Source of the DNA: Apostichopus japonicus
Taxonomy: Eukaryota; Echinodermata; Holothuroidea; Aspidochirotida; Stichopodidae
Direction of reading: 5' to 3'
NCBI RefSeq assembly: GCF_037975245.1
Contig: NC_092569.1
Location: 18,719,001 to 18,783,000 of the forward strand
DNA length: 64,000 nt
The position numbers and the translations under genes were made by a program. This document shows positions 23,827 to 55,364 of the stretch, one piece after another (within the stretch, counting starts at the first letter, position 1; each line of letters begins with the position of its first letter). The notes under the pieces are model-generated. The model was not told where the DNA came from and did no database searches. It saw only the letters and a list, made by a program, of their open reading frames with translations.

Positions 23827-26800
23827 TCAGATAGGTCGAATTTTCATTTCTGTGAACATCAAGTTGTAGTGACCTCCAGGTAAATTATCCCACTCAATAC
23901 TATTATCATTTCCACTGGCGGCAAAGTAGTTCGAGTTAAGGTCAGAAGCATCGCAACCATTGTACCACCAAGCACTACGATGATTAACTGCACAGTTATA
24001 ACTACTATGACGGTCATTGTCACTGTTGTATGTAGTGAAGGACATATTCCTGTGATAAGCCATGGAATTATGGTCTGTAGAAAGAACAACATATACACAA
24101 ATGTGTAACAACATGCACAGTTGGAACGAGTTCTTTTTCACATGGGACTGTACACTGAATATCTATATGAGAATATAGCTAAACATAATTTCTTAAAACT
24201 AACTGATATGTGTTTTTTTTTTTTTTTTTTTTGTATTCAACCATATCAGGTTCTGAATTTTCTTTAAACGAGGGTTAGTATTCATGTTTTGTATATTTTG
24301 TTTCTCAAAACAGTCAATTTTGTTTAATTGTGAATAACTGTTTGAGTTCGCAAGGCGAGTTAATTGATTTCCATTCTTTTTTAGTATTTCACAAGAAATT
24401 ATAACCAGTGGTTTATTGGTGTAGTGTGCTTGCCTCTGTGTATTAATCTAATTCTCATAGGCAATTATGATGGTATGTAGTCATAAATGGCATTATCAAG
24501 CCTTTTGACGTTTGCCTATATTTCTCTCAAATAATATTGAAGGTAATGCATTTCATATTTGGTTACTTTAATGTTATCGGTCCTCATTTTGACATCTTTA
24601 TTTGTTATAAATATATAATTAATTATATTAATTAATTTATATATATATAATTACTATATTCGTATTTATTAAACATTACACTGAACTCGTTTTATGTCAT
24701 TTTTAATTCTCTCAACGTGTGTTCTTTATTCATTCAAGTGGTAACAAGGCAATTGGCTTCAAATATAGGTAATCACATTTATTTCTTCTAAACAAACCTA
24801 GCGGAGGAACGTATCAAAGTTTCAACACAGCCAAAAGTGACAGAAGTATAAATCAATTAGGCTATATATTTTAGTTCATAATTTTTAAGAACACTAAACC
24901 AAACTTTCAGTGAATTCACCATAACTACTCATATCGAGGTACCAATAATGATTATTAGTATTATTTATCAAAGTATCCAATTTATACTTTATAGTAACGT
25001 ATGTTAGCCGATTTTCTTTCTTTTTTTGCGTTTGACGTGAGTCTGTAGAGGTAGACGCACTCAATCCGAGAGATCAGGAATCGCACTTTTGTTGCCATGG
25101 TTTTCATTATTTGAGGCAAACAAAGGGATATCAATTTCGAGTCAGTTCCCTTTACAAATAAAGTATTTCTATGTATTTTAGATTTAATGTTAGAAAGTCA
25201 AACTACAGTTCGCTTTATTCTGCTGACGAATGGGAGGGACTTTTTCTGCTGTTATAGGCTTTAAATACATTCAGAGAGACTGATTTTCGTTCTGTAGTAT
25301 GTTTTCTTGTTCCTTAAACTCGCTACGTAGGAACAAGAAATATCTAAAAGATGATGCTCACAGGGGTTCTGAGACATAGAGTACTGTCATATATATATAT
25401 TTTTTTGTCGTACACTTTGCCGATCCCCTTCTTGTATTCCTTCGAAAAGTTACTCGGCAAATAACTAAAGTCTTTCTCAAAAAGGCTAGTCGGCCTTTTA
25501 AAAATGGTGAATGAACGCCTTTGACGACTAGCTAACATCTCTAAATAAATACTTCTGTTCAATAGGATAGCAATTTTATTGGGTTTCTTAACTAATGTAT
25601 AGGTTCCACGTAAGTTGCTATCATATTTAAACCTTGGAAAATTATAGTATCGTAATAGAAACATTAACCTTTGTGAGAGCAAAAGCAGAAAAACATGCAC
25701 TTAAACTTTGAAATAAACATTTTGAAAAAAAAACTGTTTCGATGATAAAGTCTATTTAAAAAAATTAAAAGGACAGAGAATGTAGAGGTTTTAGAAGATA
25801 GATACGTATATAGATGTATGTACTTACTTGCTGTACTTTCTGACAGATACCCTCCTAGATCTACCATTCTGTATTTACGCCACTCATCACTAATACGATG
25901 TAGAGGTAATGTAGAGGTAATGTAGAGGTAATGTAGAGGTAATGTAGATGTAATGTAGAGGTTCAAGAAGATAAAAATGTATGTACTTACTTGCTGTACT
26001 TTCTGGCAGATACCTTCCTAGATCTACCATTCTGTATTTACTCCACTCATCACTGATCCTAAATAGATCGTACTTGGCGAAGTAAGGAACGCCGTTCGCA
26101 TTATTCATGTCAATACGAAGTTCATAATCTTTCTGGTTTGTCAAGTCAGATATTTGATCGTTTCCAAGCCAGAACTCTCTCATTAGAAAGCCAAAACCTT
26201 GTTTGTACTCATTCCATGTCCGGTAGAAGTCAACAGATCCATCTACTCGTCGTTGGATTACCTGACATGAATGATAGAGGATACGCTATAGGTTTGCAAT
26301 AATTATGTGAAGTGCCTGTTACATAATATAACTATTAAAGTGACGTCAAAGGCGAGAGGATCTGTTAAATACTGAAGTATACAACAGTGTCTGGATATTT
26401 TTATACATTACTCATGATGACGGTTGCCAAAGTGACATTTATTTCCGGTGGTCAAAGAGGACACAAAATGTTGTTACACAAGTTGGTGAAACCCTCATTC
26501 CTACAGTCTGTTTTAAAGATAGGATTTTCTTAAGTTTGATGATACTTATCAATTATATTTTATTAATTATTTAAATTGTTTGATTCATTCATGCATTATT
26601 AATGTTATATATTATATACCTGAAAGATGCACAGCAAGTATAACGAAGTAATCATGAAAGCAATTAGCCAAACAGTTTGTTTACTTTTGACAGGAATAAA
26701 TATTATTTTGGAGCGAATACAATCAACATTAAGATTGTATCACACATCATGTTACAGGAATATGATTTGTTGATTTCAAGAACATACGTCATGGTTTAAT

Positions 26801-29800
26801 GTACCCACCACGCTATCAATACCATCATATAGATTGTATTGATTTTGTTTAATAGAGATGACATTATCATCTTGTAAGAACCATTTCACTTTTTGTACAT
26901 AAAGTAGCCGAACTGTTATATAAAGGAATCGAAATTGGGAATGTTTACAGGAATATATAATGAACATTTGATGAAGATGATAATGCAGTTACAAAGATCG
27001 TTTAATAGTTGACAAATGACAACACCCCATATCTCCGACTGAATATCTGCACTCGTTCTACTAGCTACATTCGTTTATTATTTAAATCCTCCAGTCAAAA
27101 CTTCATGAAGAATGCCCCTCCTCCCCCCTACCCCATCCCTTTCCCTTCAAACTCTATTTTGTTTTGAAAAATACACAATACTTACAGTCCAACCGCCACC
27201 ATCAATCGAGTTGTTACAAAAGACCATAAAAGGTTCAGGAGTATTATCTGGTTGAATCATAAAAACACCGGATTCTGTATTTTGATCGTCACATTGCTCG
27301 TAAACTTCTTGACAATCTCTGGGATACTGTGGTTCCTGGTAGTAGAAGTAGGATGAACCTGAAGATAAAGAAACATCTTAGCTTCAAGTTAAGTATGTAA
27401 GTGTTCAAACGTGACCTTGCGGAACTAATATTCAAAGCATTTAACAACATATTACAACTTTAAATTTCTAGTTGTGAAGAAGTAGCAGTCAAATGTAAGA
27501 TTTAAATCTTTAAAATAGAATTTATACTTTAAGATTGAAAGGGATGGTCTAGTTTAGACATTAAACAAGGTCAAAATAATCACAGTTAATTTCAAACTTG
27601 AAATGTTTTCCGTCATCACATGAAAATGGATGATATATACTCACTGCTTGTGTCTCTCCTTTGTCTCAATCGGGAATTATATTCTGTTTTCTCCGAACCG
27701 CCCTGAAAGAACATTTTTACGCTTGTATTACGCATTAATATTTCAAAGATTCCAAATATGAGTTAAAGTTTTAAATTGGAAGCCACCCGACCTGTTAATT
27801 GTAATCCATAAGCCCTTGTTTAGGTGTCGTAAAACAACTGCTGATTATTTTTATTATATTATTATAATTGACACTCTTAAAGTTATCAATGAAAATGACA
27901 TGACATTATTCATGTAGAGGAATTCACTTGTGGAATATTACTTTGCTTTGATCTATAGATAAAAATTTTATGGTAACCAAGTAAAAATAGAACAAAACGT
28001 AAGAATATTTCACAGTCTTTAATTGAATTAATGTGCCGTACAATATTTTTCGTCTAAAACTTGGTATTTTAGAAATCCTTAGATTGTATATTATTATACT
28101 ACTAGTAACAAGTTTTAATGGAGTCGCATTACTTTGGATTTTACCAAGTAAAAATAGAACAAAACGTAAGAATATTTCACAGTTTTTAATTGAATTAATG
28201 TGCCGTACAATATTTTTCGTCTAAAACTTGGTATTTTAGAAATCCTTAGATTGTATATTATTATACTACTAGTAACAAGTTTTAATGGAGTCGCATTACT
28301 TTGGACTTTACCTTTGTCAAAGGAAACATTACAAAACGTTTAAGGTTTTTTTTATTTTTTTATTTTTTTATTAATACTTTAAGCGGCCATTAAGTCTCGA
28401 TCAGAGTAGATATTTGATGATTTCTTTTTAGTTTAATTATTCTACGTTTTGGTTAATCTTTGATGTTTAGATTTAATAAACACGCCAGAAACTGACAAAC
28501 AAAATACTTTATTGCCCCTCTCTATGTGTCGTAACCAACTTCAAATTCAGCAGAAAACAAGAGACAAAAAAAAACTGCATTCAATGTAAATTGTGCAATT
28601 GGTAATATCTCTATGAATCGAACGATACATTTGCCACTGAAGTTTTATCAACTCGGTAACCTGATTGTAAGACACATCCGATGTCTAAAATATCCTCAAA
28701 CTTTAATTACACCACTCAAATTTTACTTAAAACAATACGTGCGTTCAATTATTTATGCAAAATGTTGACATTTTTTAGATTTAAGTTACCATTTCTGTAT
28801 GAGCTATTTTACGGTAGGCATGTAGTGCTTTACAATTACATTAACATTGATCAAATTACATAGTTTTGAGAAGTAATCACAAGTTTGTGATTAGCAAAAG
28901 AGTAATTGTAAATTACATCAGAATTACTGCGATGTGGTTATCAAAGTGTGTCAACACTGTTTAAATATTTTTGTTCACATCATATTTCATGGATTTGCTG
29001 AATCGTTTCAAGTTATATATTTCCAAAAGTATTCAATTTTTAATTTGTTGCAAAATATTTATTTTCGAGAATGCTCTAATTTGAAGGCGTTACTGCCTTA
29101 ATACTACTTTTATACCTTTTTATTTATTTATAGGCTGTAAAAAACCACCAACATTAGATAAAGGCGGGACTTATAACTGCACAGAACCACTCTGTGGTTT
29201 ATTGAGTGAAGGATGTTACAAATATTGAAGTTTTGTTTATGTCAATATGGACATAGATAAGTGGTTTACTATATATATAATATAACAAAATGTTATTTCA
29301 ACACAATTGTTAACTGATGCAATCACATATTAAATTTATTCTGTATTTGCAGTGTCTGAACTTGAAGTAATATGTTCATAAATGTAACAGAAAGTTACAT
29401 TCTCTTCTGAAACAAAATATGCAATGGGGTTTACGGTTTATGATGATAGCCTTTCCCGCAATAAAACGGTGGCATAATAAAACATTATTAAGAGTTATTG
29501 CTTGTGTCATCCAATTATCACAGTTTGGCTTAATTGTAAGGATGAATATTATGAAATGTACATTTTAACTAACGAACGACCATATTTTCAACACATATAC
29601 TCTCCACAAAGCAGAACATTCACTATGAAAAGAGATGGTTTGGATATGTGGGTAATCCTGTAAATGTTTTATTAGAGAGCGTTTATTTGTCTAATAACAA
29701 ATATTTTACAAACTGCTATTCGAGAGATGGTTGGTCATGATAAGTCATTTTCCAAAACTATCTTTAAATATTGTTTGAAAAGTTGAATGGTTTACACCAA

Positions 29801-35142: not shown

Positions 35143-38100
35143 TCAGATAGGTCGAATTTTCATTTCTGTGAACTTCAAGGTGAAAGAACCTCCAGGTAAA
35201 TTATCCCACTCAATACTAGCATCATTTCCACTTGCGGCATAGTAGTTCGAGTTAAGGTCAGAATGATCGCAACCGTTGTACCACCAAGCACTATGATTAG
35301 TAACGGCACAGTTGCTACTATAACGGTCATTGTCACTGTTGTATGTAGTAAAGGACATATTCCTGTGATAAGCCAGGGAATCATGGTCTGTGGAAAGGAT
35401 AGCATACATACATAAATGTGTAACAACATGCACAGTTGAAACGAGTTTCTTTTTCACATGGGACTGTACACTGAATATCTATAGGAGAGTATATCTAAAC
35501 ATTTTTTTAAACTAACTGATATGTGTTTTTTTGTTTTTTTAACAGCCATATCAGGTTCTGAATTTTCTTTGAACGAGGATTATTATACATGCTATGTATA
35601 TTTTTACTTCAAAACAGTCAATTTTGTTTTATTGTGAATAACTGTTTGAGTTCACAAGGCGAGACAAGATACGTCCAAAGTTAATTGATTTTCTTTTTTT
35701 TTTAGTATTTCACAAGAAATTATAACTAGTGCTTATTGGTGTAATGTGCTTGCATCTGTTTATCAATCTAATTCCCATAGGCAATTATGATGGTATGTAG
35801 TTATAAACGGCATTTATCAAGCCTTTTGACGTTTGCCTATTTTTATCTCAAATAATATTGAAGGTATCGCATTTCATATTTGGTTACTTTAATGTTATCG
35901 GTCCTCATTTTGAAATCTTTATTTGTTATTAATATATAATTAATTATATTAATTACTTTATATATAATTACTATATTCGTATTTATTAAACATTACACTG
36001 AACTCGTTTTATGTCATTGTTAATTCTCTCAACGTGTGTTCTTTATTCTTTAAAGTGGTAACGAAGCAAATGGCTTTCAAATATACGTAAACACATTTAT
36101 TTCTTCTAAAAAAAACTTGTGGAGGAGTGTATCAAATTTTCAACACAGCCAAAAGTGACAGCAGCATAAATCAATTAGGCTCTATATTTTAATTCATAAT
36201 TGTTAAGAACACTAACCAAACTTTCAGTCAATTCACCATATCTATAACCTTATTTCGAAGCACCTATAATTCATTATTAGTTTTATTAATCATAGTATCC
36301 AGTTTATACTTAATAGTAACGTATATTAGCCGATTCTGGGGGTATTTGATGTGTGTTTTTAGAGGTACACGCAATCAACCCGAGAGATCAGGAATCGCAC
36401 TTTGGTTGCCATGGTTTTCATCATTTGAAGCAAACAACGTGACTTAAACTTCGAGTCAGTTCCCTTTACAAATAAAGTTTGTCTATTTTGTTTTTTTAGA
36501 TTTAATGTTAGAAAGTCAAACTACAGTCCGTTGTATTCTGCTGACGAATGGGAGGGACGTCTCCTGTTGTTATAGGGCTTTTAAATACATTCAGAGAAAC
36601 TGAATCCCGCTCTATCGTATGTCTTCTTGTACCTTAAACTCGCTACTTAAGAACAAGAATTATCTAAAAGATGCTGCTCACATGGGCTTTGAGATATAGA
36701 GTAAATAAACTTACTGTCATGCATATTTTTTACTGTACACTTTGCCAATCCCCTTCTTGTATTCCTTCAAAAAGTTACTCGGCAAATAACTAACTGTCTC
36801 GAGAAAGCTAGTCGGTCTTTTAAATATGGTGAATGAACGTCTTTGACGACGGCCCACACGTTAAGATTACATTTTATACGAGAATGAATGCACTAGCTTA
36901 CGTCTCTGAATAAACACTTCTGTTCAATAGGATAGCAATTTTATTAGGTTTCTTGACTAATGTATACGTTCCATGTAAGTTGTTATCATATTTAAACCAT
37001 GGAGAATTATAGTATCTTAATAAAAGCAACAACCTTTGTGAGAGCAAAAGCAGAAAAGAGCATGCTATTTAACTTTGAAGTAAAAATTTGGAGGAAAAAA
37101 TGTTTCGATGATAAAGTCTGTTTTAAAGAATTGCAAATGTAATAGGACAGAGAAAGTAGAGGTTCTAGAAGGTAGATATGTTTGTACTTACTTCCTGTAC
37201 TTTCTGGCAGATACCCTCGTAGATCTACCATTCCGTATTTACGCCACTCATCACTAATACGGTGTAGAAGTAATGTGGAGGTAATGTACAGTTAAAGTAG
37301 ATGTAATGTAGAGGTTCTAGAAGATAGAAATGTATGTACTTACTTTCTGTACTTTCTGGCAGATACCCTCCTAGATCAACCATACCGTATTTACTCCACT
37401 CATCACTTATACGATGTAGAAGTAATGTAGAGGTAACGTAGAGGTAATGTAGAGGTATTGTAGAGGTATTGTAGAGGTAATGTAGAGGTTCAGGAAGATA
37501 GAAATGTATGTACTTATACTTGCTGTATTTCTGGCAGTTACCCTCCTAGATCTATGATTCCGTATTTACGGTAGAGGTAATGTAGAGGTAATGTAGAGGC
37601 AATGTAGATGTAATGTAGAGGTTCTAGAAGATAAAAAGTATGTACTTACGTGCTGTACTTTCTGGCAGATACCTTCCTAGATCTACCATTCTGTATTTAC
37701 TCCACTCATCACTGATACGAAATAGATCGTACTTGGCAAAGTAAGGAACGCCGTTAACATTATTCATGTCAATACGAAGTTCGTAATCTTTCTGGTTTGT
37801 CAAGTCAGATATTTGATCATTTCCAAGCCAGAACTCTCTCTTTAGAAAGCCAAAGCCTTGTTTGTACTCATTCCATGTCCGGTAGAAGTCAACAGATCCA
37901 TCTACTCGTCGTTGGATTACCTGACATGAATTATAGAGGAGAACGTTATAGGTAGTCTGCAATAATTATGTGAAGTGGCTAATATCAGTAACATAATATA
38001 ACTATTAAAGTGATGTCACAAGCGAGAGGATTTGTTAAATACTGAGGTATACAACAGTGTCTAGATATTTAAATACATGATAACGGTTGCCAAAGTGAAA

Positions 38101-41100
38101 TTTATATTTGGTGGTCAAAGAGGACACAAAATGTTGTCACACAAGTTGGTGAGACCCTCATTCATACAGTATATTTTAAAGATAAGATTTTCTTAAGTTT
38201 GATGATACTTATGAATTATATATTAGTCATTATTATTAATTATTTAATTAATTAATTAGTAATTAATTATTAATTACAAACCTGAAAGACGTACAGCAAG
38301 TATAACGAAGTAATCATGAAAGCAATTAGCCAAACAAATCAGTTTCTTTACTTTTAATAGTAATAAATAATATTTTAGAGCGATTACAATCAACATTAAG
38401 ATTGTATCACACATCGTGTTACAGGAATGTGATTTGTTGTTTATTTCAAGAACATATGTCTTGGTGTCCTGTACCCACCGCGCTACCAATACCAACATAC
38501 AGATTTTATTGATTTTGTTTTGGAGCGAATACAATCAACATTAAGATGGTATCACACATCGTGTTACAGGAATATGATTTGTTGATGATTTCAAGAACAT
38601 ATGTCTTGGTGTCCTGTACCCACCGCGCTACCAATACCAACATATAGATATTATTGATTTTGTTTAATAGAGATGACATTGCCATCATGTAAAAACCGTT
38701 TCATTTTTTTACATAAAGTAGCCTACATGTTATGAAATTTAAAAGGATCGAAATTGGGAAAGATTACAGGAATATATAATGAAAATTTGATGACGATGAT
38801 AATGCAGTTACAACGATCGTTTAATAGTTGACGAATGACAACACCCCAGATTTCCGACTGCATCTCTGCACTCGTTCTACTAGCTACATTCGTTATTATT
38901 TAAATCCTCTAGTCAAAACTTCATGTAAAATGCCCCTCCTCTCCCCTATCTTATCCCTTTCCCTTCAAACTCTATTTCGCTTTGATAAATACAAAATACT
39001 TACAGTCCAACCGCCTCCATCAATCGAGTTGTTACAAAAGACCATAAAAGGTTCAGGAGAATTATCTGGTTGAATCATAAACACACTGGATTCTGTATCT
39101 TGGTCGCCGCATTGTTCGTAAACTTCTTGACAATCTCTGGGATACTGTGGTTCTTGGTAGTAGAAGTAAGATGAACCTGAAGATAAAAAGTAAGCGTCTT
39201 AGTATCAAGTAAAGTTTGTCATTCTTCAAACGTGACCTTGCGGAACTAATATTCAAAACATTAAACCGCATAATACAACTATAAATCACTAGTTGTGAAA
39301 AAGTAGCAAGCAAATGTAAGATTTCAATCTCTTAAATATACTTTTCGCTTTAAAATTGGAAGGGATGGTCTAGATGAGACATTATAACACGTACAAGGTC
39401 AAAATAATCAGTTAATTTCAAACTTTAAAAGGTTTTCCGTCACCACACGAAAAGGGATGATATATACTCACTGCTTGTGTCTCTCCTTTGTCTCAATCGG
39501 GAATTATATTCTGTTTTCTCCGAACCGCCCTGAAAGAACAGTATTACGCTTGTTTTACGCATTAATATTTCAAAAGATTCCAAATTTGAGTTAAACTGTT
39601 AAATTGGAAGCTACCCGACCTGTAAGTTGTAATCCATAAGCCCTTGCGAGTTTCTCCCACATTTGTGATCGCTAAGGCGTCGTAAAAATAACTGCTGATT
39701 ATTATTATTATATTATTATAAATGAAACTTTTAAAATTATTAATCAAAATGACATGACATTATTCATGTAGGGCAATTCACTTGTGGAATAGTACTTTGC
39801 TTTGCTATAGATAAAAATGTTATGGTAACCAAGTTAAAATAATAACAAAATGTAAGATTATTTCACAGTTTTCAAATGAATTAATGTCCCGGACAATAAT
39901 TTTGGTGTAAAAGTTGGTATTTTAGAAATCGTTAGATTGTTTATTATACAACTACTAACAATTTATAATTACTCCCATGGAGTCGCATTACTTTGGACTC
40001 TACTTTTCACAAAGGAAACATTACAAAACGTTAAAGGTTTTGTTCATAAATAATACTTTTAAGCTGCCATTAAGTCTCGAACGGAATAGATATATTTGAT
40101 GATTTCTTAGTTTGATTATTCTATGTTTTGGTCAATCTTCGATGTATAGATTTACTAAACACGTCAGAAACTGACAAACAAAAATACTTTATTGCACCGC
40201 TCTGTGTATCGTAACCAACTTTAAATTCAGCGGGAAACAAGAGACAATAAAAGTCTGCATTCAGTGTAAATTGTACAATTGGTAATATCTTTATGCATAG
40301 AACGTTACATTTGACAAGTTATCAACTCCGTAACCTGATTGTAAGACACGTCCGATGTCTGACATATTCTCGAAATTTAATTAGACCACTCAAATTTTAC
40401 TTTTAACAACACGTTTGTTCAATACTTTATGCAAAATGTTGACATTTTTTTAGAATTAAGTATACCATTCTGATTATTCTGTATGAGCTATTTTACGGTA
40501 GACTTATAGTGCTTTGCAATTCCCTGGTGGAAATTCCAGTTGAAATTTTGAACTGGGTTCAACTGGAATTTTCTATACGGAAATTGGCCCAAATTTGAAC
40601 TAGGTTGAAATGGGTAAACTGGGTCCAACTGGTTCAACTATGTTTTACTGGGTCCAACTGGTTCAAGTTCAACTATGTTTTACTGGGTCCAACTGGTTCA
40701 ACTATGTTTTACTGGGTCCAACTGGTTCAACTATGTTTTACTGGGTCCAACTGGTTCAACTATGTTTTACTGGGTCAACTATGTTTTACTGGGTCCAACT
40801 GGTTCAACTTTATTTTACTGGGTCAACTATGTTTTACTGGGTTCAACTGGGTCAACTATGTTTTGCTGGGTTAAACTGGGTGAACTATGTTTTACTGCTT
40901 TTATTTTTAAATAGTTTAAACTGGGATTCTCAACTGGTGTTATCTACACAATATAACACCACACTATAAGAAGTTTTCATTATTTTTACAGTAGATCTAT
41001 ACTGTATGTGTTAGGGTGTTAGCCACTGAAAATAAATGTTTGTTCTTGATCAGAGAACTCTGGATTTGGTGTGATGACCAAATACAGAGCAAGACACATA

Positions 41101-44100
41101 AAAAAATGGAGAACTCAACTGGATTGGATCAAAAGAAATTATAATTATGAAAAACAAACAAAGTACAGTTGATCTTGGATCAGTCAAAGAATTAAATGAA
41201 ATAACTTACAGTGGTGAGGTGCGCACCCAAAATATAAAGAAATACACTTAATTTAAAAGTATGTTCTGGTGATTTGGCCTGCTGGTGATATCAAGTATTC
41301 TACGACCTCAGATCTTCCACGACATCAGATCTACAACCTCAGTATAGTTGATCCCCAATAAATGGTATGTCCGATCCCAACAAAATACAGTAGTATCCTT
41401 TAATTTATATGAAATATTGTCCAGGGTATCCTTTCAGTAAAATAATGTCAATATCCTTTGTACATAGTAAAATAATGTCCTTTATAAGTGATGGTGTCCC
41501 AGAATATCCTTTATGTAAAATAATATCCTTTATAGTAAAAAGTATCCTTTAAAATAAATAGTGTCCCAGACTATCATTGAGTATCACAAATTCCATAAAA
41601 TAATAAGGTCTACAGTAACTTGAACTATGTAAATTAAGGTTTAAAACAAACTATCTAGATATTAAACTATCTTTCTCTTCTTTTACAACTGCCTTGCTCA
41701 GATACTCATAGCCAACTGCCTAACTACCTATACCCTCACAAAACTCCTTTGTTCCTAAAATATATACACACAGACCCCATTTCCTGTGAGGGAATTATTT
41801 CGAGGAAGAACAAGATAGTTGCCTAGCAACCCAGAAGAGAGAAAATTGTTAATCAACCCCTTTGCTGACACACGACAACATACAAATATACTGTACAAAT
41901 GTTTAACCCTCTGTACAGTGAACACTGCACTAATAAACAAGTAAAACTATGGTACCAAACAAAACTTTATGTAAGAGCTGACCATCTTACACTGCACTAA
42001 TGAAGCCTCACTTAAAATTAGATTGATATTTTAATCATATGTTCATAATGTTCAGTGTAGGGCATCCTCACATTTGTAGCATATACGTGTATGCTGTATA
42101 CTTCACTAATGACTTTTGCAAAGTATGTTATTATGCCAATAGGACACTTCATGTTTGAAACAACAATCAAGGCAATTGCGTTAATTTTGAAATATCTGTG
42201 AGCTTCTTTTGTTTGTGACACCTTAAGAAGTTGCCATTATGTTCGCTAGTTGACAATAGCTTTCCTAAAATCATGCGGCTAAATATAGTGTTAACTTGAG
42301 TATAACTACTGTAGGTTAGGCCCTTATAAAGTATAAGCTAGTCAACTAAAACGTTAGAATATGTCTAACGTTAGTAAATGTACCATGTAGTATACCTAGT
42401 AGGGAACCGGTTTGTTAGGCCTAGCCTATACTATAGTCCTAGGCCACTATATACAAAGTTTCTGTTCAATTCAAATATTTATGATAAAGAGCACGTTTAT
42501 AATCAATTATAACGTTACAAGTATGTAACAATAATATAAAGATACTGCAAGATCACAAAGGAGGGAACTTAGCCGCGGTAATTATTTGAAATTGTTGGCA
42601 AAATCGGTTACAAATGCAATTCTGCGAAGCTTCTGTTGGCGTTTGTGGTTTGCGGATTCGGAATTTATAAATTTAGCCCAACGCAAGACAAATGTCAAAG
42701 TTCAAATTTAGTCGGATCATACTATTTAGCACTAGGAAGGCATTTTGCCTACCAATTGTTCAAATCGCCGAACAAAGTATAAACATAATTTTTTCAAATT
42801 TATTATATAGTAAATATTTCATATCTTTAATCATTGCGGTACAAAAGTTTAATCGTTTAATCATAACTGTGATAAATATGACAAAGATTTATTTTACACC
42901 CCTCATAAGTTGGCTAGTTTAGCATTTTCAATATATTACGATACGGTTACTGCTTACGAACTTACATTTGATTATTACGCCAAAAATAAAAGCAGTCAAC
43001 ATAGTCCAGACCCAGTTGAGCCAGTGTGAAACCTAGTTCAACCCCAACAGGGAAAGTTCACCAGTAAACATAGTTCAAACCCAGTTGGGCTTGTGCAAAC
43101 CAGTGAAACCTAGTTAAATCCCAGCTGGGTCAGTTCACCAGCCAACAGTCCAAACCTAGTTGGGCCAGTGCAAAACCAATGAAACCTAGTTCAACCCCAA
43201 CAGGGCAAGTTCACCAGTCAACATAGTTCAAACCCAGTTGGGCTAGTGCAAAAACCAGTGAAACCTAGTTGAAGCCCAACTGGATCAGTTCAAACATAGT
43301 TCAAATTCAGTTTGGCCTGAACAAACCCAGTTGAACATTGTGTAAACCCAGCTGAACCTAGCTCATGTACAGCATAGCCCAGTTGGAACCCAGTTAAACA
43401 CAGTTAAAAACCAGTTAAACATAGTAGGCCCTAGTAGAACCTAGTTGATTTTTTTAACTGGGTTCTACTGGAATTTCTACCAGGGTTACATTAAGATTGA
43501 TCAAATAACAGAGTTTTGAGAAGTATTTACAAGTTTGTATTAACAAAAGAGTGTTTTTAAGTTACTTTAGAATTACTGCGATGTGGTTATCAAAGTGTGT
43601 CAATACTGTTAAAATTGTTTATTTAACATCATATTTCATGGATTTGTTGAATCGTTTCAAGAAATATATTTCCAAAATTATTCAAAATTTAATTTGTTGC
43701 AAAATATTTTCTTTCAAGAATGCCCTAATTTAGAGGGGCAAATGTCTAAATACTTCTTTTATCTTTTGATTTATTTTGTATATTTTCCTTACACAATTAT
43801 TTGGCCTGTAAAACACCACCAACAATAGATAAACGCATGACTTTTAACTGTACGGAAGGACGATTTATTTAGGTCGACATGGACATAGATAAGTGGTTTA
43901 CCATATATATTGTGTATAATGTTATTATGAAAATGTTATTTCAACACAATTGTAAACTATGGTAATCACATATTAAACTTATTATGTGTTTGCAGTGTCT
44001 GAACTTGAATTAATATGTTCATAAAGGTAACAGAAAGTTACATTCTCTTCTGAAACAAAATATGCAATTGTGTTTACGGTTTATGATGATAGCCTGCTAT

Positions 44101-45437
44101 TCGAGAGATGGTTGGTTCTGATTAAAAAAAATCCAAACTATCTTTGAATATTGTTTGAAAAGTTGAATGGTTTACATAAACACTATAGGTTTTATATGAT
44201 TGAGTAATACACAGTTACTTGGTGTCTTTCTAACATTAATAAACATGAATTGTTTTAGACAGAGAGCGAGACAAGTATGCTTGAATTAAAAATTCTGAAG
44301 TATTAAAGTAACTTGTCCTGGTGAAATAAAGCCGCAGTAAGTTATGAATAGCTTCACTTAAAGATTGTGTGATTATTATTAAACGAAAGCAAACGAAAGA
44401 AATAAAACATTGTTTGGTTATTTCAATGCATTCAATCATTTCAACATTTAAAAAGTTTCTTTTATCTTTTCATTTATTAAACTTATTCTGTATTTGCAGT
44501 GTCTGAACTTGAATTAATATGTTCATAAAGGTAACAGAAAGTTACATTCTCTTCTAAAACAAAATATGCGATGGAATTTACGGTTTATGATGATAGCCTT
44601 TCCCGCAATAAAATGGTGGCATAATAATACATTATTAAGAGTTTTTGCTTAAAATATATAGCATAAAAGCTCTCTTATGTCATCAAATTATCACAATTTG
44701 GCTTAATTGTAAGGATACATATTATAGAATGTACATTTTAATGAACAAACGATCACATTTGCTACACATATACCATTCACAAAGCAGAACATTCACTATG
44801 GAAATTTTCCAGCGATGGTTTGGATGTTTGGGTAATTGTGTATATGTTTTATTAGAGAGAGTTGATTTGTCGAACCGTACAAATATTTCAAAAACTGCTA
44901 TTCGAGAAGATAGGTTTTTTCAAACTATCTTTGAATATTGTTTGAAAAGTTGAATGGTTTACACAAACACTATAGGTTTTATATGATTGAGTAATGCACA
45001 GTTACTGGGTTTCTTTCCAACATTAATAAACATGAATTGTTTTAGACAGAGAGCGAGACAAGTATGCTTGAATTACAAATTATGTAGTATTAAAGTAACT
45101 TGTCCAGGTGAAATAAAGCCGCAGTGAGTTTTTAATAGCTTCACGTAAAGATTGTGTGATTATTATCAAACGAAAGCAAACGAAAGAAAAAAACATTGTT
45201 TTGTTAATTCAATGCATTTGATCATTTCAACATTTAAAAAGTTTGAAGTAAATTTGGGGTTTCAATTCTGATTTGTGTTAAATGGTTGAACTCTGATAAA
45301 ATAAAAGAAAGTAGTGTCTACTGTTATAACTGACCAGAAATGAAAAGAATGGTAAAACTCACCGATTTCAAAGAAGACAGAGAGCTGCCGAATTCAGACA
45401 GAAATCCAAAAGCGAACAAAATAATCTTGATCTTCAT
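35143..45437 (-). CDS. FReD gene D: secreted fibrinogen-like protein, 273 aa, intact
   Basis: Exons in order: 45363-45437 (ATG, signal peptide), 39472-39529, 39004-39176, 37650-37920 and 35143-35387. Lengths 75, 58, 173, 271 and 245 give 274 codons including the stop; all joins are in phase. It is a close paralog of C: the same RQRR exon, the same FBG layout, C-terminal SDND, SAWWYNGC and EMKIRPI. Differences: the conserved Gly in ESGVF is Ser (ESSVF); exon 4 ends GCA C instead of GCA A, so the junction codon is His rather than Asn; exon 5 is one codon shorter. Intron 4 carries three truncated exon-4 copies, and intron 1 holds a 3-kb inserted element and a tandem duplication, which explains why this gene is the longest of the three. 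Confidence 0.88.
37192..37649 (-). repeat. Array of three truncated exon-4 copies with minisatellite, gene D intron 4
   Basis: Copies at about 37192-37263, 37344-37415 and 37519-37570 repeat the exon end (ISDEW..YLPEST) with its donor; the third is shortened and shifted. Short runs of the 11-bp unit GTAGAGGTAAT separate them. Confidence 0.85.
38379..38668. repeat. Two-copy 145-bp tandem duplication in gene D intron 3
   Basis: AGCGA(A/T)TACAATCAACATTA starts each copy, at about 38379 and 38524. Gene C has a single copy near 26713. The unit contains the tRNA-like piece described at 26775. Confidence 0.8.
40545..40915. repeat. 29-bp minisatellite, left arm
   Basis: The unit ACTGGGTCCAACTGGTTCAA followed by CTATGTTTT repeats with a period of 29, for example at 40682, 40711 and 40740, with shortened units later. 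Because 29 is not a multiple of 3, all three frames stay open; these frames are not genes. Confidence 0.92.
43005..43470. repeat. Degenerate minisatellite, right arm
   Basis: Units such as AACCTAGTTCAACCCCA and CACCAGTAAACATAGTTCAA resemble the reverse complement of the left arm. Units are more diverged than on the left. Confidence 0.8.
43984..45266. repeat. Large tandem duplication in gene D intron 1
   Basis: GTGTCTGAACTTGAATTAAT occurs at about 43996 and 44499, and the following blocks, up to AACATTTAAAAAGTTT, recur in order. The first copy lacks an internal stretch of roughly 280 bases. Genes C and E have one copy (from about 29352 and 54331). Confidence 0.75.
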
Positions 45438-47174
45438 GTTGAGCAATACAGGTGAACAAATCGTCGAGATTAAGACTGATAGCACTTCACAGCAGGAGAA
45501 CTAACGCAAGAATGAATTCAAAGCCAATCTGACATTCTCGATATCACTAAATTGTCTTACTTGAAACAAAGGAGATTGATGACGTAGTCGTTCTATTCAA
45601 TTGTAAGGATGCTGTGACGCATCTGTTTCAATTTTAAGGAATTATTGCAAAAATAGTTCAATACCATTAAAAGAACTTATCTTGATGTTTTGACTAATCG
45701 AAATTACAGTTGCAAAGTATTTACGTCTCATATTGAACTCCATCCATCGTATTGCTTTAGTGTTATACCAATGAATATATAAATCAAACAATCAGGTCAC
45801 TTGATGCGGTTTCAGAATGCCAAGTAGCTAAACGCCAGCAGAGTAGTTGTCTGATTTGTGGATGAACGTTACATTAGAATTGTAACATTTGCCAAAAATA
45901 TGTATTACTTGTTTCAACTCATTAGTTGGGATTACCTTAGTTGCTCATGGTTTAAATAAGCAAGTTTTTTTGATGCTTCGTAATATCTGATAGATGCCAC
46001 GTGACAATACAATTTATAGCCCTGCTGCAAGAATGCGCCGAAAGTTGTTTGTATTGTTATATGACGTAGGCGTACACTTGAAAGGAATGCAAAGTAATCC
46101 TTTCTTAGTGAGATAAACGTATCGAAGTATTTCAAAGAAACATGTTTCCCAATGGTGTGTAAATGTTCAGGTTATATCTAATAACTGAATGACTCAACCA
46201 GATGTGTAACAATTATGATCGTTTTACCGCAATAGACGGTTGTTTTGCTTCATGTATCTCAGATTAACAAGGTACACGCGTTCATCGCATTGCTTCAGTG
46301 TTACGTCAGTGAATATATGAATCAACCAATCAGGTTACTACATGCCGTTTTAAAAGTAGCTCAACTCCTGTAGACTGTCTGATTTGTGAATGAACGTTGA
46401 ATTGCAATATTTCTTCTAACTGTTGTAAGTGACCATTGAAAGTAGTGAAAGATAAATAAGTGCTGAAGGTCTTCCTTCATAAGTGTTTTTTTTTTTTTTT
46501 TTGTCAAAATAGTGAAAGTTGTCACGTAACAACATAGGATGTTCCGACGTATGGTACATATTTAGGTCATTATTTCTTCTCAGTTAGATGTTTCAATTGG
46601 TCGGTCGGTCTGTTTAACTGATTTCGTTCCATCCTTGTCGACACAGTACACGGCACACGGTACACAGCTGTTTTCTGAAATCTAGCTATAGGCTTAATCA
46701 TTGGTACAATTCGCCACAAATGTTCGGCTCCTACGTATCGATTCCGTGTGTATTCAAATTAACGCTTTGAATGATACATGACCATACAATATCGGAACAT
46801 ATAGTGACAGTACACGGTGAGATCATTTAGGAGAGAAATGGTGTACTAAGCCATTGCAAAGTCTTTTATACACAATCGCAGAAATTCTTTCCTGCAAGTC
46901 TAAAATATGTTTCTTATTGAAATCTTTCCAAGTGCATAATATATTACACATCATGCGACTCGAGTAAGGTTGGCGGTCCAACTAAAAAAAAAAATTGTAA
47001 ACGAAATAACTCTGAAAGTTGAGCTTGGATGAACTTCATTTCTTGAATATAGTTCCACCTTATTTATTGCTGCACAACAGCGTACAAATAAATGCTGTTA
47101 TTGTCTGTTGTAAGAGGCTGTTGCAAGTGTCTGCTCTTCATGGCTGTTATCTTCAAACCAATTCGAAGTTTACA
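45438..47174. other. Spacer upstream of gene D
   Basis: No supported gene. The proximal 200 bases match the conserved upstream block of C and E, with TGACGTAG at 45580-45587. Relative to C, about 650 bases are missing at about 45740, where sequence matching 30590 joins sequence matching 31275. Confidence 0.5.
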
Positions 47175-47236
47175 ATAAAAGAGTCAACCTCAGGTTCAGT
47201 AACTTCATCCTCAATGCAAGCTATCGGTAAAAGATA
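47175..47236 (+). pseudogene. Orphan copy of TRNAU1AP exon 1 (broken)
   Basis: It is homologous to 59785-59862, but the start codon is ATA and a deletion of about 18 bases removes the LWMG codons and the splice donor. MQAIGKR is still readable. Confidence 0.8.
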
Positions 47237-48633
47237 CAAGAACTTCTTTTCTTTTGCGCTGCTGTTATAGTTATGTACGCTTCGTACTCTGATCTGTGCG
47301 GCTGGTTGAATCTTGGCATATGGATGGTTTGAATGTTTTGGACTAAGTTATATACAACATTGTGTATGCAAGAAATGAATTGGGACCATTTCCGCGACAA
47401 AACGCCTAGTTTACAACATTGCAGTCTGGCATCCATTTTACCGGAATTAAAAACATGCAACAAGTTGACGACATTTTGGGTTTTTTTTTATACGTTTCCT
47501 TGCTTTTGAACTTCAATCATTGTAATCATTGTAAGTCTAGCGGAATTTGACCATAGCAACGGTTAAATCATGCCATTGAAAGATGATAAAAGAGAAAATC
47601 AAAGGGATTGATAAGGATACCAATAACCACTGAAGTGTAAGAGCTAACATAAATCTCCTCAGAACTTCATCATGTTTTTGGTATTTACCGATGAATGCAA
47701 AATTGATATTAATTTAAAACGACAATAATACTGTATTCTATATATGTGTCAGTCTCTACAAACAGTAGCATTTGTCGTTGTCCAGTATGTCCAGATAGTT
47801 ACTACTGCCCCTGGTGTGTCCATTGTGTAACTGTTTGAGTATAACCCTTGTACCTCTAGGGATTTGCTAGCGCTATCAGCTGGTAGTAGACGTAGAACAT
47901 TGTACCTCAAACTCTAGTATTGATACATGCTCTACTGTAGGCGTTGAGCATTTCAATGTTTAAATCATGAGATATTAATAATTTTGCATAAAGTAACCCT
48001 CATGGTTGAAAGAGAGTGTGCACCTCCACAACCGGGGGATCCACGCCTGAGAGTTTCGCGGGTCCGGAGGGGTGATGTTACTCTTCTCCGACTAAATGTA
48101 AGGAAAATCAACAGCTGAACGCCCACAGACCCTACCAACATACCCCACTCCCTTCCCTCCTTCCCCCTCCCTTGCGCAAATCATTGAACTGCCAGATATA
48201 TTACCAGAAATAATCCAAGTCCTTACTGAAAGGAAATTTATGGACGCCACTGGAAGGAGGCTGTTGACGGAGGGTTCCGTAGCCATCCTAAACTACCTTC
48301 CCAATGCTTCAACAGATGCGAACATCAAACATTTAAACACTTCAAACTTCTTCTTTATTAGTTTCAGAAAACTTAATGTTTACATGAGAGACTGTAGGAA
48401 ACGTTGAAATAGTTGTCATGAGGGACTTCTGCAGTTAAACTTTCGTGTCACTCGAAACCAACTAAAGGTTCAATCTCCAGAAACAAACGATGTGGAATGA
48501 TATGTAATCAGGCTTTTTACTTGTTAAGTAGCACATGCCAATGCGATACTTCACTATCTGGGAGAAATTAAGTTTCAGCTATACAAATAAGACAAGAAAA
48601 CAGCAAGGCCAATAGTTTCAATAACATTAAATC
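47237..48633. other. Region between the broken orphan exon and gene E
   Basis: Copied TRNAU1AP intron 1 sequence runs to about 48003. A more GC-rich insertion of unknown nature follows (about 48003-48300), then flank sequence like that before C and D. One plus-strand frame in the insertion (about 48177 on) codes for LPEIIQVLTERKFMDATGRR and onward, with no family recognised. Confidence 0.45.
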
Positions 48634-48639
48634 TTTATT
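48634..48639 (-). promoter_or_regulatory. Probable poly(A) signal of gene E
   Basis: AATAAA on the minus strand about 222 bases after the stop, matching C and D. Confidence 0.6.
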
Positions 48640-48860
48640 GATTTCTACTAAATGTATATCAATCAACCATTATTATACAATCACTAGACTCTTTTCAGCG
48701 TCTGCATTTATCATGATGTTTTATATTGATTTACATTTTGTTGACAGTGTGTGCTTTTTCTTCAGGCTTTGTAGCTTCAACTCTGAGAATTTCCGCCTCA
48801 TTGAAGCAATTATATTTTGATGTTCTTGACATGATATTACGGCAAGATTCACTGTAGACA

Positions 48861-49927
48861 TCAGATAGGTCGAATTTTCATTTCTGTGAACTTCAAGTTG
48901 TAATCACCTCCAGGTAACTGGGTCCACTCAATATTAGCTTGATGTCCACTGGTGCCAAAGTAGTTTGAGTTAAGGTCAGACTGATCGCAATTATAGTACC
49001 ACCAAGCGCCATGGTGACTAGCGGCACAGTTATTACTATAAATGTCATTGTCCCTGTCGTATGTAGAGAAGGACATATTCCTGTGATTAGCCAGGGAATC
49101 ACGGTCTGTAGAAGGAACAACATATACACAAATTTGTAACAAAATTCAAAGATCATACGAGTTCTATTTCACATCTGAGAATCAGCATCTGTAGAAAGAA
49201 TATCCAACATATAAACAAGTATTTTTTCACATGGAACTGGATATTTAATATCTATTTGAGAGTACATCTTAACATAATTTATTAATTGAATTTAATTGAG
49301 ATGTTTTATTTATGTTCTGAATTTCTGTTAGAGAGTGGAAATTCAAAATTTGTATGTTGTTGTGGATGAAAATAGTTGTAATTAATATAACCGTTATGTA
49401 TATATTGTTTTCCAAACAATCAAATTTTTTATACATACGCCTTTATACATATGTATTTGTGATGGACTGTTTGAGTTCAAATGGATGAGGCAAGGTACTA
49501 ATAAAACTTGGTTTTCCTTTTTTTCATAGTATTTCACAAGAACAACTTTCAACCGGTGTATATCTGTTTATAAGTAATATTATCACTAGCAATCATCATG
49601 GTGTGAAGTCATTTATTGTATGATAAAGCCATTAGGGTATGTCTTTTTCTTCTCTTAGTAACACTGAAGGTATTATATTTCTTACTCAAATTTAAAGTAT
49701 GTGTTATTCATTCATTCTAATTTCTGTATTCGTATTTATTTAACATCACACTGTTAATTATCTCAATATCTGTACTTTATTCTGTCAAGCGGTTATGAAT
49801 CAAATGGATTTTAAATGCAGATCATCACGATACTTTCTGCTAAAAAAAACCGTTGTGAAGGAACGTAAGAAATTTTCAGCAATAATTAACAGCATACGAA
49901 ATAAATTTGGCTAGGAAAATTTAACCG

Positions 49928-49988
<61 letters not shown>

Positions 49989-52900
49989 CAAGTTTTGGAA
50001 ATTAAATAAACGAAACGAAACGATAAGAACACACGATATCAGGAAATCGGAACTCGTAAATTTGTTGCCATGGTATTAATAATTTGAACGAATAACGGGA
50101 TATTAAGTTCCAGAGTCAGTTCCCTTAACAAATAAAATATGTATTTTAGATTATTGTATGATATATTCTTAATAAAGCTGTGAATGCACTCTTCTACAAC
50201 AAATCCAAACGTGTAACAAAAAGTGTGTACCGAGTGAGACGTGTTGAAAGAATGTGGTAATATGAAAATTTAACAAGTCAACTATTATTTTTAAGCGTTC
50301 GGATCATAAACGGCGGTAGGTAATATATAGTACGAATTCGAACTATTGTTTGCTTCAGTCTGCAGACGAAATAGAATACATAACATTTAGACAAACTTAA
50401 TTACCCTTATGTTTGTTTGCTTGTACTTCAATCTTGCTACGAGAGAACACGAATTATCTAAACGATGCAGCTCACATGAGATACAATCCTTAAACTAGAT
50501 CCTCCTTATGTCACGCACTTTTTTTAAATGCTGTAGCTTCCGGTACACTTTGCCAAATTCCTCCCCGTTCTCCTTACAAATACGGTGTGCAGTTGTTTTG
50601 TTCGCTTTTCGATACAATGCTCGGCAAGTCACAGAAGTCAGTCTCAAATATGCTAGTTGACCTCAAAAAGTGGTCAACGTACGCCCTTGACGACGGCCCA
50701 GAAGTTAAGATGAAGTCCTATACAAGAATATGTGCACTTGCCAACGTCTCTAAATATAAACTTCTGTACAATTTGATGGCAATTTTATTCGGTTTTTGGC
50801 TACTGTTTATGTTTCACGTTAGTTGCTATCATATTTAAACCATAGAGAATTATCGTATCTTAATAGAAGATTAACAAGTTTGAAAGAACGAAAGCAGGAA
50901 TGAGTATACAATGCAAATTTGAAGTATACATTTTGAAAAACTGTTTCGATGTAAAGTCTGTTTAAAAAAAAATCAAATGATATAGGACAGAGAATCTAGA
51001 GGTTCTAGAAGATGAATGAACTTACTTGCTGTACTATCTGACAGATACCCTCCTAGATCTACTATTCCGTATTTACGCCACTCATCACTTATACGATGTA
51101 GAGGTAATGTAGAGGTAATGCAGATTTAATGTAGAGGTTCAGGAAGATAGAAATGTATGTACGTACTTGCTGTACTTTCTGGCAGATACCCTCCTAGATC
51201 TACCATTCAGTATTTACGCCACTCATCACTTATACGATGTAGAGGTAATGTAGAGGTAATGTAGAGGTAATGTAGAGGAAATGTAGATGTAATGTAGAGG
51301 ATATGTAGATGTAATGTAGATGTTCTAGGAGATAAACAAGTATGTACTTACTTGCTGTACTTTCTGGCAGATACCCTCCTAGATCTACCATTCTGTATTT
51401 ACTCCACTCATCACTGATACGAAATAGATCGTACTTGGCAAAGTAAGGAACGCCGTTAATATTATTCATGTCAATACGAAGTTCGTAATCTTTCTGGTTT
51501 GTCAAGTCAGATATTTGATCGTTTCCAAGCCAGAACTCTCTCTTTAGAAAGCCAAAGCCTTGTTTGTACTCATTCCATGTCCGGTAGAAGTCAACAGATC
51601 CATCTACTCGTCGTTGGATCACCTGACATGAATGATAGAGGAGAACGTTATAGGTAGTCTGCAATAATTATGTGAAGTGGCTAATTTCAGTAACATAATA
51701 TAAGTATTAAAGTGACGTCACAAACGAGAGGATTTGTTAAATACTGAAGTATACAACAGTGTCTGGATATTTTAATACATTACTCATGGTGACGGTTGCT
51801 AAAGTGACATTTATTTTCGGTGGTCAATTAGGACACAAAATTTTGTCACACAAGTTGGTGAGACCCACATTCATACAGTATATTTTAAAGATAAGATTTT
51901 CTTAAGTTTGATGTTACTTATTAATTAAATAAGTAATGACCATTAATTATTTAATTAATTAATTAATTAATTATTAATTATATACCTGGAAGACGCACAC
52001 CAAGTATAAAGAAGTAATCATGAAAGCAATTAGCAAATAAAATCAGTTTGGTTTAAAAGGATTAAAAGGATCGAAATTGGGAATGTTTACAGGAATATAT
52101 AATGAACATTTGATGAAGATGATAATGCAGTTACAACGATCGTTTAATAGTTGACAAATGACAACACCCCAGATTTCCGACTGCATCTCTGCAGTCGTTT
52201 TACTTTCGTTTATTATTAAAATCCTCTAGTCCAAACTCAAAAATGCCCCTCCTCTGCCTTATCTCGCCGACAATCATCCTTTTCCTTTCAGAATTAACAA
52301 ACTCTATTTCGATTTGAAAAATACAAAATACTTACAGTCCAACCGCCTCCATCAATTGAGTTGTTACAAAAGACCCTGAAGGGTTCAGGAGCATTATCTG
52401 GTTGAATCATAAAAACACCGGATTCTGTATCTTGTTCGTCACATTGTTCGTAAACTTCTTGACAATCTCTGGGATACTGTGGTTCCTGGTAGTAGAAGTA
52501 GGATGAACCTGAAGATAAAGAAAGCATCTTAGCTTCAAGTTGAGTATGTCATTCTTCAAAATTGACCTTACGGAACTTATATTCAAACATTTAACACATA
52601 TCAAACCTTTAAATTTCTAGTTGTGAAGAAATAGCAAGCAAATGAAAGATTTCAATCTCTAAAAAAAGACTTTTATGCTTTAAGATTAAAAGGGATTGTC
52701 TAGTTTAGACATTAAACAAGGTCAAAATAATCACAGTTAATTTAAAACTTAAAAATGTTTCCGTCGTCACATGAAAAGGATGATATATACTCACTGCTTG
52801 TGTCTCTCCTTTGTCTCAATCGGGAATTATATTCTGTTTTCTCCGAACCGCCCTGAAAGAACAATTTTACGCTTGTATTTGGCATTAATATTTCAAAGAT

Positions 52901-55364
52901 TCCAATTTAAGTTAAACTGTAAAATTGGAATCCACCCGAGTTGTAATCCAGAAGCCATTGCGGGTTTTTCCAACATTTGTGGTCGCTTAGGCGTCGTAAA
53001 AAATAACTGTTGATTATTATTATATTATTATAATTGGAACTTTTAAAATTATTAATCAAAATGACATGATATTATTCATGTGGGGGAATTCACTTGTGGA
53101 ATATTACTTTGCTTTGATCTACATATATATAAATGTTATGGTAACCAAGTAAATATAGAACAAAACGTAAGAACATTTTACAGTTTTTGATTGAGCTAAT
53201 GTGCCGTACAATATTTTTGGTGTAAAACTTGGTATTTTAGAAATCGTTAGATTGTATATTCTACTACTAACAATTTCAAATTATTTCCATGCAGTCACAT
53301 TACTTTGGAATTTACTTTGGACAAAGGAAACATTACAAAACGTTTAAGGTTTTTTCTTTAAATAATACTTTAAGCTGCCATTAAGTCTCGATCAGAGTAG
53401 ATATATATTTCATAGTATCTTAATTTGATTATTCTATGTTTTAGGGGAATCTTCGATGTATAAATTTAATAAACACGTCAGAAACTGACAAACAAATATA
53501 CTTTATTACCCCGCTCTCTGTGTTGTAACCAAAATCAAATTCAGCAGAAAACAAGAGACAAAGCAAATCTGCGTTCAATGTAAAGTGTAAATTTGGTAAT
53601 ATCTCTATGAATCGAACGTTATACATTTGACAAGTTATCACCTCGGTAACCTGATTGTAACATCCGATGTCTAAAATATTCTCGAAATTTAACTAGACCA
53701 CTCAAATTTTACTTGAAACAACACGTATGTTCAATACTTTATGCAAAATGTTGACCTTTTTAAGGTTTAAGTATACCATATTGATAATTCTGTATGAGCT
53801 ATTTTACGGTAGGCTTATAGTGCTTTGCAATTGCATTAACATTGATCAAATAACAGAGTTTTGAGAAGTATTCACAAGTTTGTGATTAACAAAAGATTGT
53901 TTGTAAGTTACTTTAGAATTACTGCAATGTGGTTATCAAAGTGTGTCGATATATACTGTTAAAATTGTTTATTTCATGGATTTGTTGAATCGTTTCAAGA
54001 AATATATTTCCAAAATTATTCAACTTTAATTTGTTGCAAAATATTTGATTTCAAGAATGCCCTAATATGAAGGCGCAACTGTCGAAATACTTCTTTTATC
54101 TTATTATTTATTTTGTATCTTTTCCTTAAACAATTATTTAGCCTGTAAAACACCACCAACATTAGATAAAGGCATGACTTTTAACTGTATGGAAGGGCGT
54201 TTTGCTTATGTCAATATGGACATAGATCAGTGGTTTACCGTATATATTATGTATCATGTAATTATGAAAATGTTATTTCAGCACAATTATAAACTAAGGT
54301 AATCACATATAAAACTTATTTTGTAGTTGCAGTGTCTGAACTTGAAGTAATATGTTCATAAAGGTAACAGAAAGTTACATTCTCTTCTGATAAAATATGC
54401 AATTGTGTTTACGGTTTATGATGATAGCCTTTCCCGCAATAAAATGGTGGCATATTAATACATTATTAAGTTTATGATGATAGCCTTTCCCGCAATAAAA
54501 TGGTGGCACATTAATACATTATTAGGAGTTGTTGCTTAAAATACATAACATAATAGCTGCCTTGTGTCATCAAATTATAACAGGTTGGCTTAATTGTAAG
54601 GATAAATCATATGGAATTTTCATATCAATAGACAAACGATCACATTTGCTACACACATATATATACCCTTCACAAAGCAGAATATTCACTATTGAAATTT
54701 CCTAACGATGGTTTGGATATTTGGGGTACTTGTGAACATGTTTTATAACAGAGCGTTTATTGGTCGAATTACAAATATTTCACAGACTGTTATTGGAGAG
54801 ATGGTTGGTTCTGATAAGTTTTTTTTCTCCAAAACTATCTTTGAATATTGTTTGAAAAGTTGAATGGTTTACACACACACTATAGGTTTTATACGATTGA
54901 GTAATGCACAGTTACTGGGTTTCTTTCCAACATTAATAAACATGAATTGTTTTAGACAGAGAGCGAGACAAGTATTCTTGAATTAAAAATTCTGAAGTAT
55001 TAAAGTAACTTGTCCTGTTGAAATAAAGCTGCAGTAAGTTATGAATAGCTTCACTTAAAGATTGTGTGATTATTATGAAACAAAAGCTAACGATAGAAAA
55101 CTTTTTCTTGGTGGGGGGGGGGTGTGTTAACGCAATGCATTTGATCGGTTTAACATTTAAAAAGTTTGAAGTAAGTTTGGGTTTCAATTTTTATATCATT
55201 TGTGTTAAAATGGTTGAACACTGATAAAATAAAAGAAAATAGTGTCTACTGTAATAACTGACTGAAATTAAAAGAAAGGTACAACTCAAAGATTTCAAAG
55301 TAGACAGAGAGCTGCCGAATTCAGACAGAAATCCAAAAACGAACAAAATAATCTTGATCTTCAT
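48861..55364 (-). CDS. FReD gene E: fibrinogen-like protein, 273 aa frame, signal exon donor lost
   Basis: Exons by homology: 55290-55364 (ATG, signal peptide IILFVFGFLS), 52795-52852, 52336-52508, 51352-51622 and 48861-49105. All five are open and in phase, 274 codons including the stop. Exon 2 with RQRR is identical in bases to C and D. FBG motifs: DCQEVYEQC, GGGWT, FWLGND, then DRDND, GAWWYYNC and TEMKIRPI. The Ca2+-type motif DRDND is closer to the family standard than NSDND in C and D. The oddity is exon 1: where C and D have TCG then GTGAGT, E has TCT then TTGAGT, so the donor GT is gone. The nearest GT (GTACCT, 7 bases further) would shift the frame. E may be dying, or use another first exon. 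Confidence 0.8.
49930..49986. repeat. (TA)n microsatellite in gene E intron 4
   Basis: Roughly 28 uninterrupted TA units. Genes C and D have different AT-rich tracts nearby (24607-24660, 35930-35970). Confidence 0.95.
51026..51351 (-). repeat. Array of two truncated exon-4 copies with minisatellite, gene E intron 4
   Basis: Copies at about 51026-51098 and 51167-51238 repeat the end of exon 4 with donors GTAAGT and GTACGT. Runs of the 11-bp unit with TAGAGGTAATG separate them from each other and from the true exon at 51352. Confidence 0.85.
54415..54526. repeat. Two-copy 56-bp tandem duplication in gene E intron 1
   Basis: TTTATGATGATAGCCTTTCC starts each copy, at 54415 and 54471; they differ at two or three bases. 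Confidence 0.88.

Follow-up and report, generated by a model that had tools for sequence, protein, structure and literature searches.

Minisatellites that duplicate an exon-intron boundary have been described in amphioxus, where they are known as mirages. In the globin gene BflGb9 the repeated boundary is the 3' one of exon 2, in units of 157 bp, and in BflGb6 a repeat with units of 150-160 bp has six and three of them in two haplotypes; on the basis of RT-PCR, regular splicing was judged to be undisturbed (PMC3087553). The lancelet genes PGBD5, Adh (Adh3) and TnC have also been named as mirage cases (PMC3902484). For paralogs within human segmental duplications, De Grassi and Ciccarelli (2009) listed 162 alignments before manual inspection and kept 27 intron modifications (PMC2812944).

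Fibrinogen-domain (FREP) genes are described as the most strongly expanded family in the sea cucumber Apostichopus japonicus and as forming tandem clusters, with 21 of them on a single scaffold (PMC5638244). Three neighbouring FREP genes, here called C, D and E, lie on the minus strand of the stretch of 64,000 nucleotides that was analysed (the window), and belong to this clustered, tandem-duplicated family; exon-end repeats are not part of its published description, in the portion of that paper considered here (PMC5638244). All three were modelled as five-exon genes from open reading frames and splice sites. The product of gene D, the one that was run, contains a fibrinogen C-terminal domain (Pfam, E = 1.2e-66), and its best-scoring solved structure is ficolin-2; the query was slightly off at the exon 4/5 joint, which leaves the domain call unaffected. 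The true fourth exons are the following.

25991..26261, minus strand: exon 4 of gene C (open reading frame and splice sites)
37650..37920, minus strand: exon 4 of gene D (open reading frame and splice sites)
51352..51622, minus strand: exon 4 of gene E (open reading frame and splice sites)

Compared between the three genes, true exon 4 has a dN of 0.009-0.025 and a dS of 0.038-0.119, while the introns diverge pairwise by 8.6-11.0% (intron 3) and 10.6-15.6% (intron 2). The two introns give conflicting answers as to the closest pair, and the order of the paralogs was not obtained.

Just downstream of true exon 4, intron 4 of each gene carries copies of the end of that exon in sense orientation (minus strand), one in C, three in D and two in E in the one haplotype represented. 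Like the amphioxus mirages, many of which contain splice signals, these are tandem copies of an exon-intron boundary with splice signals inside the repeat units, and as in BflGb9 it is the 3' boundary of an exon that is duplicated; units measure 150-160 or 157 bp in amphioxus versus 141-185 bp here (PMC3087553). Copy number varies by haplotype in amphioxus, whereas in C, D and E it varies between close paralogs of one haplotype, which serves as a proxy. The present case further differs in its sea cucumber host, in an array position that is kept across three paralogs and in a nested 11-bp minisatellite. The variable internal tandem repeats of human genes are similar in that recent paralogs have different numbers of repeat copies and that sites lie at exon-intron boundaries, but their units average 30 bp, as opposed to about 150 bp in C, D and E, and they alter annotated exons or introns with support from RNA (PMC2812944), while no change of gene model is known for C, D and E.

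Composition of the exon-end arrays

In the repeating unit, 70 nt from the end of exon 4 are followed by a donor, by 21-37 nt of intron sequence and by a minisatellite of 11-bp units. The exon part is 70 nt long (23 codons plus one base) in five of the six copies and 51 nt long in D3.

25828..25897, minus strand: copy C1, 70 nt without a stop, followed by GTAAGT
37520..37570, minus strand: copy D3, truncated to 51 nt, with a frameshift and a stop, donor GTATAA
37344..37413, minus strand: copy D2, 70 nt, donor GTAAGT
37192..37261, minus strand: copy D1, 70 nt, donor GTAAGT, at the far edge of the array
51167..51236, minus strand: copy E1, 70 nt, with an in-frame TGA, donor GTACGT
51026..51095, minus strand: copy E2, 70 nt, donor GTAAGT, at the far edge of the array

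With the end of exon 4 of gene E as query, a blastn search of the 64 kb window matched all six copies at E-values from 3e-45 (D2) to 8e-27 (D3), so that chance likeness can be excluded. Start-to-start distances are 163 nt in C, 149, 157 and 152 nt in D, and 185 and 141 nt in E. The preliminary description of this DNA had reported the same counts within intron 4, but had taken the C copy to be the truncated one, whereas C1 is complete and it is D3 that is truncated. It was right that nearly the same 23 codons recur, except that E1 and D3 contain stops and D3 a frameshift, and right that every copy keeps a donor (GT in six of six, GTAAGT in four of six). The interval it had assigned to the arrays, 37192-51351, misses that of gene C (25828-25990).

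The copies are separated from each other, and from the true exon, by spacers.

25898..25990, minus strand: C spacer, donor, intron start and six 11-mers
37571..37649, minus strand: D spacer 1, donor, intron start and five 11-mers, the last one incomplete
37414..37519, minus strand: D spacer 2, seven 11-mers
37262..37343, minus strand: D spacer 3, five 11-mers
51237..51351, minus strand: E spacer 1, eight 11-mers
51096..51166, minus strand: E spacer 2, four 11-mers

The unit of the minisatellite is TACCTCTACAT, with 4-8 units per between-unit spacer (6, 5, 7, 5, 8 and 4 in the order listed). Past the last unit of an array there is a single 11-mer and then ordinary intron, TCTCTGTCC, in all three genes. 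The duplicated piece of intron ends with the first 11-mer, AACCTCTACAT, from which the minisatellite would therefore most simply have arisen. Within the 64 kb window, the 11-mer run is restricted to the three arrays. The junction at which a copy begins, CTACAT|CGTAT, is identical in C1, D2, E1 and E2 (four of the five full copies); that of D1 is one base off, and the start of D3 is lost. A repeating unit of exon end plus minisatellite had been proposed at the outset, and a unit made of exon end, donor, intron start and minisatellite, with numbers that differ among paralogs, is supported.

Tandem repeats are often misassembled, and a single assembly was examined. It is nevertheless highly improbable that the arrays are an assembly artefact or a collapsed repeat, as the three loci have different counts and distinct private substitutions, and as related copies recur across genes.

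Decay of the codons and splice signals

In the 23 codons of the copies, 16 changes were inferred by hand count, silent in 4 cases, missense in 10 and nonsense in 2, and the frameshift of D3 comes in addition; codon 16 was excluded because the true exons differ there. Random mutation would be expected to yield a silent share of 21-26%, whereas four or fewer silent changes would have a probability of 0.002-0.010 under exon-like constraint (omega 0.2). Coding constraint on the copies was thus not supported, the pattern of silent, missense and nonsense changes looking neutral. Nor do the copies resemble functional coding micro-exons, since two stops and a frameshift are not what purifying selection on codons would leave.

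The survival of the donors likewise matches neutral decay. The probability that GT survives in all six copies is 0.43, and that GTAAGT survives in at least four is 0.66; the copies were treated as independent in these sums, and their shared history would make retention even likelier. Selective retention of codons or donors was therefore not supported, as neutral decay fits both. A fairly recent origin of the copies, raised in the preliminary description, is supported. Their mean distance from the exon state amounts to 6.7% (27 of 401 sites), the exon state being given a G at codon 16, a choice that favours a small distance. This value is similar to the neutral divergence among the paralogs, which per lineage comes to roughly half of the pairwise values for introns 2 and 3.

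Decoy donors that tune splicing were another early proposal, and computed U1 pairing energies bear on the reading that the copied donors, or whole pseudo-exons, might act as decoys which compete with the true exon-4 donor and lower or tune output. The donors of C1, D1 and D2 (-7.0 kcal/mol) equal those of true exon 4 (-7.0 to -7.1), but the other three are weakened (E2 -5.6, D3 -4.0, E1 -2.8) and, as described, donor retention agrees with neutrality. The minisatellite runs ahead of the copies are free of AG and contain 66-70% pyrimidine in all six spacers, and would thus provide an acceptor-like leader, the sole feature that sustains the decoy reading. When exon 4 is extended past its donor, an in-frame stop follows after 33 (C), 8 (D) and 40 (E) amino acids, ahead of the first copy donor, so that a protein made by way of a copy donor would be cut short. 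A search for proteins with the read-through tail of gene C yielded two candidates, neither of which reached E <= 1; this evidence is weak and concerns the gene C tail only. The amphioxus mirages were judged not to disturb regular splicing, in the portions of both reports considered (PMC3087553, PMC3902484). On balance, we consider decoy splicing very unlikely. The full unit comprises an AG-free pyrimidine-rich leader, an AG and the exon end, with a donor as strong as the true one in three of five cases; it might be seen as a ready-made decoy exon, and the differing number of units in these adjacent genes of immune type as a slippage-driven dial on the full-length FREP output of each gene, a very unlikely scheme.

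For amphioxus globins, there is a model and a precedent for the gain of introns or exons from mirage repeats (PMC3087553), of which the arrays in C, D and E might represent a first step. We regard this as most improbable, because a pseudo-exon that began at the first AG would measure 62 nt, lie out of frame and be interrupted by a stop in all five full copies, and no copy is both open and in phase. Read-through to a copy donor and inclusion of a copy would each cost the normal reading of exon 5. A truncated A. japonicus protein (P0041) was considered as a copy-derived product and discarded, its tail being, by eye, exon 4 in another frame.

History of the copies and their relation to exon 4

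A maximum likelihood tree was computed from nine pieces (three exon ends and six copies) on a short, hand-made alignment of 120 columns. All copies form one clade (support 86), within which D3 and E1 are grouped (88) and the far-edge copies C1, D1 and E2 are grouped weakly (48 and 35). When each exon was constrained to group with the copies of its own gene, the AU test rejected the arrangement in the three genes jointly (0.0003) and also in D (0.003) and E (0.004) taken singly, whereas in C it was not rejected (0.119); under the milder SH test it was not rejected in E either (0.079). Copies cluster with copies of the other genes and not with their own exon, which is most simply explained by one founding duplication before the genes separated, followed by drift.

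D3 and E1 look like orthologous copies, in which case the ancestor of D and E would have had at least two. An origin of the three D copies within D was not rejected (p = 0.159), so that gain and loss cannot be separated; on the best tree, copies would have been lost from C and E.

The tree also bears on the idea that the intronic copies serve as a pool of templates which rewrite exon 4 by gene conversion, for which a matching of copy variants and variants of the true exon had been suggested as the informative comparison. Two arguable sites are shared: at codon 16, exon E has the GGG of all copies and the exons of C and D have AGG; at codon 7, D2 has the AGT of the exons. The GGG may be ancestral, because another A. 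japonicus protein (P0001) also has G at this position. On the other hand, the exon-private changes of C (codon 1) and D (last base) are missing from their own copies, changes at codons 7 and 10, each present in five of the six copies, are found in no exon, and grouping within the gene is rejected for D and E, though not for C. The exons were thus not found to share the variants of their own gene's copies as expected of a donor cassette, and a conversion pool, one of the roles put forward in the preliminary description, appears extremely unlikely.

We favour, as very probable, an exon-boundary minisatellite of the mirage kind that goes back to one founding duplication, has gained and lost units and decays neutrally without a function; the publication of the same kind of structure for amphioxus (PMC3087553) backs this reading. 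The founding event would have been a single tandem duplication, in the common ancestor of the three genes, of a segment made up of 70 nt from the end of exon 4, the donor and ~38 nt from the start of intron 4; the copy would have been joined on at ...CTCTACAT|CGTAT... The final 11 nt of this unit, AACCTCTACAT, would then have multiplied between units to give the 11-bp minisatellite, and whole units would have been gained or lost through slippage or unequal exchange, leading to the present one, three and two copies. The intronic copies are probably passive and would have no role, decaying at an approximately neutral rate, and their donors would survive solely because the copies are young.

Exon-end arrays and other changes among FREP genes

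No partial copy of exon 4 was found within 1.5 kb on either side of 27 other FREP exon-4 loci. These were the next-best matches beyond C, D and E, 40 of 234 candidates having been scored and loci obtained for 30; in 26 of the 27 the query ended no more than 6 nt away from the end of the exon, and in the remaining one (L022) it fell ~44 nt short. As a positive control, exon 4 used alone recovers all copies in the three genes (one in C, three in D and two in E). In a comparison of 95 exon-like intervals from 264 kb (the window and 20 further stretches), exon-end arrays occurred only within the window; the intervals include some of the copies themselves, and the C copy is merged into an exon interval, so that the C array is not listed there.

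Two other exon-scale duplications were noted among the 95 intervals. In one FREP gene (L041:7135-7873) the whole of exon 3 is tandemly duplicated with 95-98% identity and splice sites that look intact by eye, and mutually exclusive or pseudo-exon use is possible, judging from the sequence. A 57-nt match in the same locus was discarded as an exon-end array, being intron by eye. In the other (L045, minus strand), an open exon 4 (1076-1192) is preceded, in the sense direction, by one that is partial and damaged (2340-2456), the two being 88% identical over 117 nt.

Introns of C, D and E contain further tandem duplications, at 27976-28312 (C, 167 bp), 38373-38665 (D, 145 bp) and 54414-54524 (E, 56 bp), each consisting of two copies with 94-98% matches; the region turns over tandem repeats generally. 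Intron 1 of gene D has an insertion of ~2.96 kb (40522-43485) that is missing at the matching site in C and E. It has near-identical inverted ends, CCCTGGTGGAAATTCCAGT and CCCTGGTAGAAATTCCAGT, with repeats of 29 and 76 bp close to the ends, and looks like a DNA transposon. At the end of exon 1 of gene E (55290-55364) the donor is lost, with TTTGAGT versus GGTGAGT in C and D (U1 pairing -2.7 vs -9.4), and this gene may use another exon 1 donor or may be impaired.

The last exons were located as follows.

24074-23827, minus strand: exon 5 of gene C
35387-35143, minus strand: exon 5 of gene D
49105-48861, minus strand: exon 5 of gene E

Unlike in exon 4, amino-acid changes in exon 5 proceed at close to the silent rate or above it (dN/dS 0.183/0.200 for D-E, 0.197/0.164 for C-E and 0.091/0.149 for C-D), and this exon may be diversifying or relaxed. 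Below ~50670, intron 4 of gene E has only scattered short matches to C and D; its exon 5 is more diverged while exons 3-4 are close, which suggests a mosaic gene.

The arrays of C, D and E belong to a known type of structure and are likely an echinoderm example of it. In a literature search of open-licence papers no echinoderm report of an exon-boundary minisatellite was found, and as far as this search shows the host group is new. The arrays thus add a likely echinoderm case to the exon-boundary minisatellites, which the papers considered here describe in lancelets, and with three paralogs that possess both shared and private units, the gain, loss and decay of such repeats become traceable.
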